Positions 6,386-63,668 of a stretch of DNA of 64,000 bases are shown one piece after another; positions within the stretch are counted from its first letter, which is position 1; each line of letters opens with the position of its first letter. Below the pieces are notes generated by a model that worked only from the letters and a program-made list of their open reading frames with translations, had not been told where the DNA came from and made no database searches. The stretch lies in contig DASXVS010000080.1 in assembly GCA_036504095.1 (NCBI GenBank), positions 124,001-188,000 of the forward strand. The letters are read 5' to 3'. The position numbers and the translations under genes are program-made. This DNA comes from Armatimonadota bacterium (lineage in GTDB: Bacteria > Armatimonadota > DTGP01 > JAKQQT01).

Positions 6386-7297
6386 TTACCGCGAAACGGC
6401 TTTTCCAACGGCGGAGTGGAGAAACCGCAGCACCCGCTTCCGATATTCCACGGTGCATTCCCCGTAGGACCGAATGTGACCGGACGCCCCGGTAATCCAC
6501 AATTCCCGGGGTCCGTTCACCGCCGCAAAAATCCTCTCGCTGTCCCTCATGGGTATCAGACGGTCGTTCCGGCTGTGGATGAGGAACAAGGGCCGGCCCC
6601 CAAGGCGCCTCGCGGAATCAAGCGGAGAGGCATCGCTCAGGTGTTCCCTCAGAATGATCTCGCCCAGCCAGGCCGCGTAGCCCCCGCAGAGCCTGCCGAA
6701 CGGGCCGCCTCCGAAGCGCCGCACCGTCTGCACGTCGAGCGATGTGTAGGGGCTGTCGGCGATCACAGCGACGATCCGCTTGTCCGCGGCCGCGGCCATG
6801 ATGCAGGCCGCCGCGCCCATGGACCAGCCCATCGCCGTGATCGGCCTGTCGGAGCGTTTCGCCGCGTAGTCGACGGCGCCCTCCAGATCGCGGGGCTCGC
6901 GCAGGCCGATGGTACTCATCCCGCCGCCGCTCTTGCCGAGCCGCCGAAAATCGAACGCCAGCACATTGAAACCGGCTTTGTGAAGGAACGGGATCACCGG
7001 AAACACGTCGCGGCGGTCGGCGGGATATCCATGGCACAGGATCACCGTGCCGACGGGTGTGTTTGCCGGCGCCCACCACCCGGAAAGCGTGAAACCGTCG
7101 CGCGACGGAAACGAAACGTCCTCAAAGGCAATGCCATCGTCCCCCGGATTCGCACTCATGGCGAATCGCGCAGGGTGAAGCGCCTGCCAGACGATGAGGC
7201 TTACACCTCCAACCGTGACAGAACAGAACCCCGCGATGGCATACTGCAGCCACACCAGTATGCGCCTCCGTTTCGGTTTCGCGTTCATCGATTTCAT
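6386..7297 (-). CDS. membrane-anchored alpha/beta hydrolase
   Basis: The 303-residue product has a basic N-terminus and one hydrophobic segment (LQYAIAGFCSVTVGGVSLIVW), so it is probably anchored or secreted. It then has an alpha/beta hydrolase core: oxyanion-region ILCHGYPADRRD, nucleophile elbow GWSMGAAA, acid HSRNDRLIP and histidine SGHIRSY. Such proteins hydrolyse esters or amides; the substrate is not predictable. It resembles the YqkD/FrsA-like peptidase or esterase group in layout. It follows the propeller-like gene by 74 bases and probably shares its transcript. Confidence 0.88.
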   Translation of the reverse strand: MKSMNAKPKRRRILVWLQYAIAGFCSVTVGGVSLIVWQALHPARFAMSANPGDDGIAFEDVSFPSRDGFTLSGWWAPANTPVGTVILCHGYPADRRDVFPVIPFLHKAGFNVLAFDFRRLGKSGGGMSTIGLREPRDLEGAVDYAAKRSDRPITAMGWSMGAAACIMAAAADKRIVAVIADSPYTSLDVQTVRRFGGGPFGRLCGGYAAWLGEIILREHLSDASPLDSARRLGGRPLFLIHSRNDRLIPMRDSERIFAAVNGPRELWITGASGHIRSYGECTVEYRKRVLRFLHSAVGKAVSR

Positions 7298-34659: not shown

Positions 34660-35427
34660 ATGAAGAGTACCTGGCTGTCAATCTGGCTCACCTTGGCGTT
34701 TCTGGCGGCGTTCACGCTCGCCGCGGTGTACACGCCGGAAACGTCCGCTACCCGGGCGCATCACCGGAGCGTCGCCCTGGCATGGCAGCAAAAACAGGAT
34801 GAGAAGGCCAGGCGGGACGGCCTGGCCGTTCCCCAGCCTCTACCGAAGGGCACGGTCCGTTGGGCGGCCTCGGGCTGGGCGCAGCGCCTGGACGGGTGGG
34901 ACCGCCGGACGTTCCAGGCGATCAACGAGGCGTGGGACAATCGGTTCTTCGACTCGGCGATGCCGGGCATAACGAGCCTCGGCAACGGCGGCGTACAGGC
35001 GGCCGGACTGCTCGCGCTGTGGCTCTGGGGGCGCAAGCGCAAACGGGCGGACTGGATGCGAACCGCGATCCTGTCGGTCAGCGGTTTGCTCTTGAGTGTG
35101 GTCGCGCCTCAGATCAAGCTCATCCTGCCTCGATTCCGTCCGCCGTCCCTGATCCCGTATGACATCGTACTGCTCGTTCACCCGCTCTACGGGGGCTCGT
35201 TTCCGAGCGGGCACACCATGTCTTCGTTCGCCATCGCGACGGTCATCGGCATGCGGCACCGCTGGGCGGCGGCGCCGGCGTTCGCCATAGCGGCGATCAT
35301 CGGGCTCAGCCGGATCAGCGTGGGTGTGCACTGGCCGCTGGATGTCCTCGGCGGGGCCATCATCGGCGTGCTGCTGGGCTTTGCGGTGGTCCGGTGGGAC
35401 AGCAGAAGGGGGAGGGAGACGAAATGA
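34660..35427 (+). CDS. PAP2 superfamily membrane phosphatase
   Basis: The 255-residue protein has an N-terminal membrane segment (WLSIWLTLAFLAAFTLAAVYT), a hydrophilic linker, then several helices carrying the three PAP2 motifs: KLILPRFRPP, FPSGHTMSS and SRISVGVHWPLD. PAP2 enzymes dephosphorylate lipid phosphates such as phosphatidic acid, phosphatidylglycerol phosphate or undecaprenyl pyrophosphate at the outer face of the inner membrane. The substrate here is unknown. The ATG at 34660 gives a sensible first helix. The stop overlaps the start of the next gene (ATGA), so the two are translationally coupled. Confidence 0.92.
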   Translation: MKSTWLSIWLTLAFLAAFTLAAVYTPETSATRAHHRSVALAWQQKQDEKARRDGLAVPQPLPKGTVRWAASGWAQRLDGWDRRTFQAINEAWDNRFFDSAMPGITSLGNGGVQAAGLLALWLWGRKRKRADWMRTAILSVSGLLLSVVAPQIKLILPRFRPPSLIPYDIVLLVHPLYGGSFPSGHTMSSFAIATVIGMRHRWAAAPAFAIAAIIGLSRISVGVHWPLDVLGGAIIGVLLGFAVVRWDSRRGRETK

Positions 35428-36140
35428 CGGTCATGTGTATCGGCGCGCACCCCGATGACGAGATATCGGCCGGCGGCACGCTCATCAAGCATACCCGGGC
35501 AGGAGACCGCGTGGTTGTCGTCACGGTCACGGACGGCGGGATGGGGCACCGTACGCTGCCCGTGCCGGAACTGCTGAAACTCCGACAACGCGAGGCACAG
35601 GCGGCCGCGGAGGTGCTGGGGGCCGAATTGCGGATGCTGGGCTACCCGGATGGCGCCGTTCCGCGCAGCCTCGAACTGGTTCACCACATCGCGCGCATCA
35701 TCCGCCAGGTGAAGCCGGATATCGTGCTGACCCACAGCCGCGAAACACTGCACCCGGACCATAACACGGTCCAGCAGGCCGCTGTGGATGCGGTGTTCGC
35801 CGCGAGCCTGCCGTTGCTGGAACTGGGACACCCCGCGCACAACGTTCCGCTCACACTGTTGTTTGCGCACAGCCTCTACAAGCGGCACGACGTTTACGTG
35901 GACATTCGCGAAAGCATCGAGGCGAAGATTCAGGCCGCGGGCTGCCACGCATCGCAGTACGAGGACTGGCTCACCACGGGCGGATGCGCTATCGACGGCG
36001 GCTGGGAGATGGGATACCAGGACTCATTTCGCATGGAAGCGCGCGTCTTCGGGGGGCACTGCGGTATCGAGTACGCCGAGGCATTCGATTACCTGAGCCC
36101 GCCGGACCCCGTCGCGCTGCCCAAGCTCACGCACGGTTAA
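35424..36140 (+). CDS. PIG-L family N-acetylglucosamine deacetylase-like protein (BshB-like)
   Basis: The 238-residue product has the zinc-binding PIG-L motif AHPDDEISAGG at residues ~7-17 and a downstream histidine motif, ETLHPDHNTV. PIG-L/LmbE-fold enzymes remove acetyl groups from GlcNAc-type compounds, for example in bacillithiol or mycothiol synthesis. The start overlaps the PAP2 stop by four bases, with GGGAGG upstream. The C-terminal HG and stop codon (CACGGTTAA) are part of a perfect 34-bp palindrome. BshB activity is possible but no other bacillithiol gene is present. Confidence 0.9.
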   Translation: MTVMCIGAHPDDEISAGGTLIKHTRAGDRVVVVTVTDGGMGHRTLPVPELLKLRQREAQAAAEVLGAELRMLGYPDGAVPRSLELVHHIARIIRQVKPDIVLTHSRETLHPDHNTVQQAAVDAVFAASLPLLELGHPAHNVPLTLLFAHSLYKRHDVYVDIRESIEAKIQAAGCHASQYEDWLTTGGCAIDGGWEMGYQDSFRMEARVFGGHCGIEYAEAFDYLSPPDPVALPKLTHG

Positions 36141-36204
36141 CCACAAAGGCACAAAGACACGAAGATCGAATCTTCGTGTCTTTGTGCCTTTGTGGTTAAC
36201 CGTG
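36132..36204. terminator. perfect 34-bp palindrome of the CCACAAAGGCACAAAGACACGAAG family
   Basis: Arms 36132-36165 and 36171-36204 are perfectly complementary around a 5-base TCGAA loop. The left arm includes the last two sense codons and stop of the deacetylase gene; the right arm ends exactly where the tRNA-His CCA (leftward) begins at 36205. It would form a very stable bidirectional hairpin between convergent transcripts. Confidence 0.9.
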
Positions 36205-36282
36205 TGGGGCGAGTGATGGGAATCGAACCCACGACCTCCAGGGCCACAACCTGGCACTCTAACCGACTGAGCTACACCCGCC
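36205..36282 (-). tRNA. tRNA-His (anticodon GTG)
   Basis: Read leftward: G-1 at 36282, acceptor GCGGGTG paired with CACTCGC, discriminator C pairing with G-1 (the histidine identity element), and an encoded CCA at 36207-36205. The anticodon stem CCAGG/CCTGG holds loop TTGTGGC with anticodon GTG. The T arm has GTTCGATTC. Its 3' end abuts the palindrome with no gap. Confidence 0.97.
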
Positions 36283-63577: not shown

Positions 63578-63668
63578 GCGATGAACGATGAACGACCGAA
63601 TGTAGCGCGGGCGCCTCGCCCGCATCGGGCATTCATCGATCCCTTAGTGTCTTTGTGCCTTTGTGGTC
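63577..63668. repeat. composite of three intergenic repeat families
   Basis: Between convergent genes, in order: GAGCGATGAACGATGAACGA (63577-63597), TGTAGCGCGGGCGCCTCGCCCGC with a GCGGGCG/CGCCCGC hairpin (63600-63622), GGGCATTCATCGAT, which mirrors GATGAATGCCC words elsewhere (63627-63641), and AGTGTCTTTGTGCCTTTGTGGT (63646-63667), the family of the 36132-36204 palindrome. Confidence 0.75.

Follow-up and report, generated by a model that had tools for sequence, protein, structure and literature searches.

The perfect palindrome at positions 36132 to 36204 of the window (the whole 64,000-nt stretch of Armatimonadota DNA that was analyzed) probably belongs, as a form without a gene, to a dispersed family of hairpin elements whose two arms are kept alike by copying from one to the other. 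In this family, the arms are placed as an inverted pair directly behind the ends of genes, and longer forms built in the same way enclose a GxxExxY gene coding for a predicted PD-(D/E)XK nuclease. Copying between the arms would occur, probably during replication, while they are paired as a hairpin or cruciform. In some copies, that of the window included, their identity continues 5 to 16 bp beyond the repeat boundary into neighboring sequence, which may have been copied as well. For the window, CACGG would have been copied from the end of a deacetylase gene to the side of tRNA-His, or the reverse.

A dispersed repeat within the palindrome

The sequence-only reading had described a perfect palindrome of two 34-nt arms and a 5-nt loop that contains the last codons of a deacetylase gene and reaches exactly to tRNA-His, and this description of the locus holds. 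The same sequence can be written as two 35-nt arms, 100% complementary (36132 to 36166 on the forward strand and 36170 to 36204 on the reverse strand), around a 3-nt loop (36167 to 36169). Inside the left arm lie the last codons and stop, CAC GGT TAA, of a PIG-L family deacetylase gene (PF02585; 35424 to 36140, forward strand, within an open reading frame at 35394 to 36140), and the last base of the right arm is the one before the encoded CCA of the tRNA-His (GTG) gene (36205 to 36281, reverse strand). There is no spacer between this CCA (window position 36205) and the hairpin, and maturation of the tRNA 3' end may be affected. A chance origin of the palindrome is excluded, its RNA fold reaching -74.2 kcal/mol compared with -24.3 (SD 3.3) for shuffled sequences (z of -15). 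Apart from the tRNA, an Rfam scan of the palindrome returned only miRNA families, all below gathering scores, as any perfect hairpin gives such matches.

About 25 to 28 bp of each window arm belong to a genome-wide repeat. Its 25-nt core (36140 to 36164, forward strand, and 36172 to 36196, reverse strand) recurs as 40 arms at no more than 3 mismatches in this 4.68-Mb genome, 18 forward and 22 reverse, with none for the reversed-pattern control. The window holds 3 of the 40, the third being an arm with 1 mismatch at 63643 to 63667 on the reverse strand (L017), for which no partner was found within the limits applied. When the window and 28 other loci of the same genome were examined for pairing, 24 of the 29 carried an inverted pair and 5 a lone arm within those limits. 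Each arm is built from two to four tandem units of about 8 nt, that of the window reading CACAAAGG-CACAAAGA-CACGAAG, and the copies vary in shape, some being compact like that of the window and others having arms 50 to 80 bp apart, with an inner palindrome in several of them. In L015, L022, L026, L028, and L035, which are long or single-arm forms, a second inner repeat (GATGAATG / CATTCATC) lies between or beside the outer arms as a nested palindrome. A search of the literature with the arm strings, most subscription papers being outside its reach, found no paper that contains them.

Beyond this genome, the distribution over the phylum is patchy. A 24-nt degenerate arm pattern matched in 18 of 291 phylum genomes, against 0 or 1 control matches per strand and genome, and five of the 18 have 36 to 140 arms each. 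At the syntenic locus of genome G001, the deacetylase is 59% identical, tRNA-His lies farther downstream, and such a palindrome is absent; the divergence is too great for this locus to serve as an empty site. A deacetylase search of genome contigs gave one distant locus, which was left unused.

Outer stems and the placement of copies

The arms of the window remain complementary past the family boundary, beyond which the outer 5 to 8 bp lie. The outer 8 nt are CACGGTTA (36132 to 36139, forward strand), overlapping the final codons and the stop of the deacetylase gene, and TAACCGTG (36197 to 36204, reverse strand), immediately 3' of tRNA-His. The arm end reads TTAACCAC, and the TAA of the deacetylase falls within this end of the element itself. 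Extensions of 8 nt occur in 2 of the 24 paired copies of this genome (the window and L027), and the mean extension is 1.23 vs 0.74, a value as high being reached in 0.75% of re-pairings, with two copies counted twice.

A larger sample is provided by genome G019, in which 67 loci were read from 140 arms and, after one duplicate element was dropped, 53 different paired copies were analyzed. Beyond the CCAC boundary, complementary flanks of at least 5 nt were present in 27 of the 53 copies (re-paired mean, 4.9; maximum, 15 in 10,000 trials) and of at least 8 nt in 8 copies (re-paired mean, 0.44; maximum, 4 in 10,000 trials), the longest being 16 nt. The in-register inverted identity of the flanks was likewise raised, at 5.4 vs 2.95. 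The arms here end in WATNAACCAC, and as the information of the shared consensus fades near position -10, a longer family consensus was ruled out as the full explanation for the outer stem. When flanks were re-paired solely among copies sharing an end triplet, the 8 copies with at least 8 nt still exceeded the mean of 1.63 and the maximum of 6. Extension length showed no correlation with arm mismatches in this genome (rho -0.05, P = 0.72). Arm repair and extension therefore need not be a single event, and the result counts against one in which arm plus flank are copied together, as such an event predicts a correlation.

It could alternatively be proposed that the element inserts at the center of a short palindrome that was already present, in which case the outer stem would be the target rather than a copy and the palindrome at this site would have been CACGGTTAACCGTG. 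Removal of the element from the window does leave CACGGTTA/TAACCGTG, which is palindromic in itself, several G019 copies behave alike, and another hairpin is often found at the corresponding sites of sister genomes. This explanation nevertheless requires perfect palindromes to be struck at their exact center, and the extensions vary in length between 0 and 16 nt and end abruptly, the match rate just beyond the first mismatch being 0.29 compared with a background of 0.26. We regard it as rather unlikely, although it is the strongest of the alternatives. Under copying between arms, the direction at the window may be suggested by the deacetylase ends, which read ..LKLLKG (GGG TAA) in G001 and ..PKLTHG (GGT TAA) in the window: from this one distant relative, the GGTTAA side would seem to be native and the tRNA-His side the likelier copy.

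The family is located at gene ends. By rough gene calls, 22 of the 24 paired copies lie outside predicted genes, compared with 8 of 92 control positions, usually about 20 bp or less past a stop codon, and the neighboring genes are in tandem (9 ++ and 7 --) or convergent (6) and never divergent (0). As these calls omitted tRNA genes, the window was counted as ++ and is in truth convergent with tRNA-His. An association with tRNA-His only was ruled out, with copies adjoining RNase P RNA (L013), tmRNA (L023), and tRNA-Pro (L015). Such a placement, with no copy between divergent genes, together with a highly stable RNA fold and a simple scan that is terminator-like on both strands, would be expected of an ordinary selected hairpin that acts as a two-way terminator or RNA stabilizer and has no mobile origin. 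The full stem, however, is not followed by a real U-tract, and selection for termination leaves unexplained why the same sequence stands at unrelated sites and, patchily, in distant genomes. A non-mobile origin is thus unlikely in our estimate; terminator function and mobility are not mutually exclusive.

Inverted arms around GxxExxY genes

GxxExxY genes often lie near repeats of this kind, and this was the starting point for a test of their flanks. Inspection of the 11 PF13366 matches in this genome and four relatives revealed inverted arms at most of them. The wider set, made up of the best-scoring PF13366 loci plus chosen sister genomes, comprised 76 loci and yielded 74 genes flanked on either side by 200 bp or more; L156, L159, L167, and L169, each too near a contig end, and the fragment L154 were omitted from the arm test. 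In this test, which takes the best local alignment between the 300 bp upstream and the reverse complement of the 300 bp downstream, a score of at least 30 was reached by 64 of 74 GxxExxY genes, compared with 1 of 136 control windows displaced by 1000 bp and 180 of 5398 pairings across loci. At a score of at least 36, these counts were 59 of 74, 0 of 136, and 88 of 5398, respectively. Ten of the 74 genes are without inverted arms at the lower threshold. Plasmid records of Bacteroides, Bernardetia, Gemmatirosa, and Sphingomonas, in three named phyla, carry arms scoring at least 36 (4 of 8 plasmid GxxExxY genes), one shifted-window control of the Gemmatirosa record also reaching 43; those of Treponema, Prevotella, Persicobacter, and one of the Fusobacteria have none at this threshold.

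The arm units, such as CACAGAGR, CGCAGATG, ACAGGATG, and CGCAAAGR, vary among genomes and agree inside one element. In genome G044, the gene-bearing element L146 has an arm that reads CCACAGAGACACGGAGGCACAGAG, the commonest among the hairpin arms listed for that genome. Both GxxExxY elements of the window's own genome have CACGGAG-type arms, unlike the CACAAAG type of the window, which speaks against the proposed kinship; the CACAAAG type is found at the GxxExxY element of G001. To the left of the gene in L186 (G275:C99, about 6490 to 6700), the left arm region with its GCAAGGCACACCT tail stands in several tandem copies. With no GxxExxY gene between its arms and a loop of 3 nt, the window copy is called a gene-less relative on the likeness of its arms only.

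Two proteins of this genome are members of TIGR04256, with clear membership in TIGR04256 / PF13366 (PDDEXK_3), a family whose literature includes PMC8934634. In an alignment of 49 sequences, G19, E22, Y25, D62, K74, Q86, Y90, and N103 are invariant and E72 nearly so (at least 90%), and the catalytic D and E-x-K of the PD-(D/E)XK core are present as D62, E72, and K74. The pattern of D, ExK, and QxxxY is reminiscent of RecB/Cas4-like nucleases. The predicted structure has a pLDDT of 95.8, and its structural matches are weak, with SSO0001, lambda exonuclease, and LHK-Exo, all nucleases of this fold, at the top and a best E value of 7e-3. From motif and model, GxxExxY is predicted to be a small PD-(D/E)XK nuclease.

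At five gene-bearing sites, the same intergenic gap was read in sister genomes, and at three of the sites it holds a gene-less hairpin; at one of these three, the gene-bearing L186 and the gene-less L237 have arms of one type. The fourth site has an insert of about 357 bp with a different perfect palindrome, and the fifth has an unrelated stretch of about 593 bp; none of the five is empty, and neither transposition nor excision was seen. Such sharing of gaps could mean that the gene has been lost from the loop, or that elements arrived independently at a favored place. In a separate observation, L147 / L149 and L179 / L206 are GxxExxY elements that occupy one gene gap in two species with genes that are not closest partners, which suggests repeated arrival or replacement at a single site. 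Because the GxxExxY gene lies within longer members of this build, the short forms resemble miniature, non-autonomous elements, and they may be derived from the long ones.

Gene-bearing relatives also allow changes in the two arms to be compared, copying having been predicted to match substitutions in one arm with those in the other. Gap-free arm columns were counted over six ortholog pairs (GxxExxY partner rank 1, or 2 for L191/L197); 15 changed alike in both arms, a class favored by the choice of arms for within-element likeness through local alignment, 28 changed in a single arm, and 4 were arm specific, the remainder being 1 crossed, 8 other, and otherwise invariant. The concerted columns come from four of the pairs (L181/L183, L165/L187, L176/L184, and L148/L151), and L191/L197 and L203/L207 have none, so that the prediction is borne out in part of the sample. 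Two further pairs, L147/L149 and L179/L206, were excluded for their partner ranks of 8 and 6 and would add 4 and 8 concerted columns.

Concerted change, together with a perfect match of 35 bp that includes coding sequence, could also be taken to favor a single local event, in which hairpin-templated synthesis at the window locus produced the whole second arm (36170 to 36204) from the first, as had originally been suggested. The core, however, has about 40 copies in the genome, most of them in inverted pairs. Its pairing therefore predates the window locus, no copying at this locus is needed to account for it, and a one-off duplication is ruled out for the core. We consider a single local event improbable: for most of the palindrome (25 to 28 bp, the dispersed inverted repeat) the suggestion falls away, and for the outer 8 nt it survives in part.

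Returning to a hairpin element with arms kept alike by copying, we tentatively propose a role for its partner gene. GxxExxY might be the enzyme of a widespread bacterial class of hairpin elements, a counterpart of REPIN/RAYT based on a PD-(D/E)XK nuclease, that acts on hairpins or cruciforms with arms of tandem units and spreads or maintains them behind genes; the repair that follows would re-copy arm from arm, sometimes into host sequence, conceivably by template switching. No paper linking the GxxExxY family with inverted arms was found in the part of the literature that was searched, most subscription literature lying outside it, and an earlier notice is possible. Inverted arms at most of the tested genes give a testable context to a family with almost no literature among the papers searched and supply a partner gene for a palindromic repeat class of patchily distributed genomes, and site-specific outer stems could allow hairpin-templated copying to be studied in natural genomes.

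Comparison with known palindromic elements

REPIN arms carry a GTAG-type tetranucleotide; at the arms described here it is absent, the ends being WATNAACCAC in G019 and TTAACCAC in the window. PMC3116915 describes REPINs as hairpin-forming, extragenic inverted doublets, and the present elements resemble the REPIN/RAYT system in their short inverted arms, in their extragenic dispersal, and in an enzyme gene tied to the repeat. That the palindrome is itself a REPIN of a RAYT (Y1 transposase) system is very improbable, despite this likeness and the 7 Y1 matches in the genome, and such an identity was ruled out because the Y1 loci lack these arms as flanks: all 7 own-genome loci are flanked by other palindromes and none by these arms, and a survey of 30 Y1 loci in five genomes found two with such arms in the neighborhood, a matching arm about 1.5 kb off at the first and CACAGAG-type arms on both sides of the second (L255). 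The arms here are instead tandem 8-nt units, unassociated with the Y1 transposase genes of the same genome, and the associated gene codes for a PD-(D/E)XK family protein. The seven Y1-transposase-like loci (L253, L257, L261, L265, L268, L271, and L274), with flanks such as ACCACCGACTGAAGTCGGTGGC, look like a separate REPIN/RAYT system. L255 (G019:C24:416747-417109) belongs to a group of five similar, high-scoring Y1 genes in G019; the other four do not lie between such arms, and L255 looks like an insertion sequence that came to rest within a hairpin element.

A gene-less form with inverted ends that occurs alongside a gene-bearing form recalls MITEs with terminal inverted repeats. Unlike MITEs of DDE transposons, the 53 G019 copies show no target-site duplication (the longest direct repeat of the flanks has a mean of 3.94, as in re-paired flanks, 3.94), and no DDE transposase was seen in the elements read. 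Mitochondrial hairpin elements are palindromic and reportedly considered selfish but are organellar, unlike the window element. Template-switch mutation at quasipalindromes has been shown in yeast mutation assays (PMC3820800), whereas here it would be inferred from the comparison of repeats in bacterial genomes. The window copy resembles the GxxExxY inverted-arm elements in having inverted arms made of tandem units, each about 8 nt, but has no enclosed gene. That longer relatives of the repeat enclose a gene for a predicted nuclease points to a little-studied class of bacterial hairpin element.
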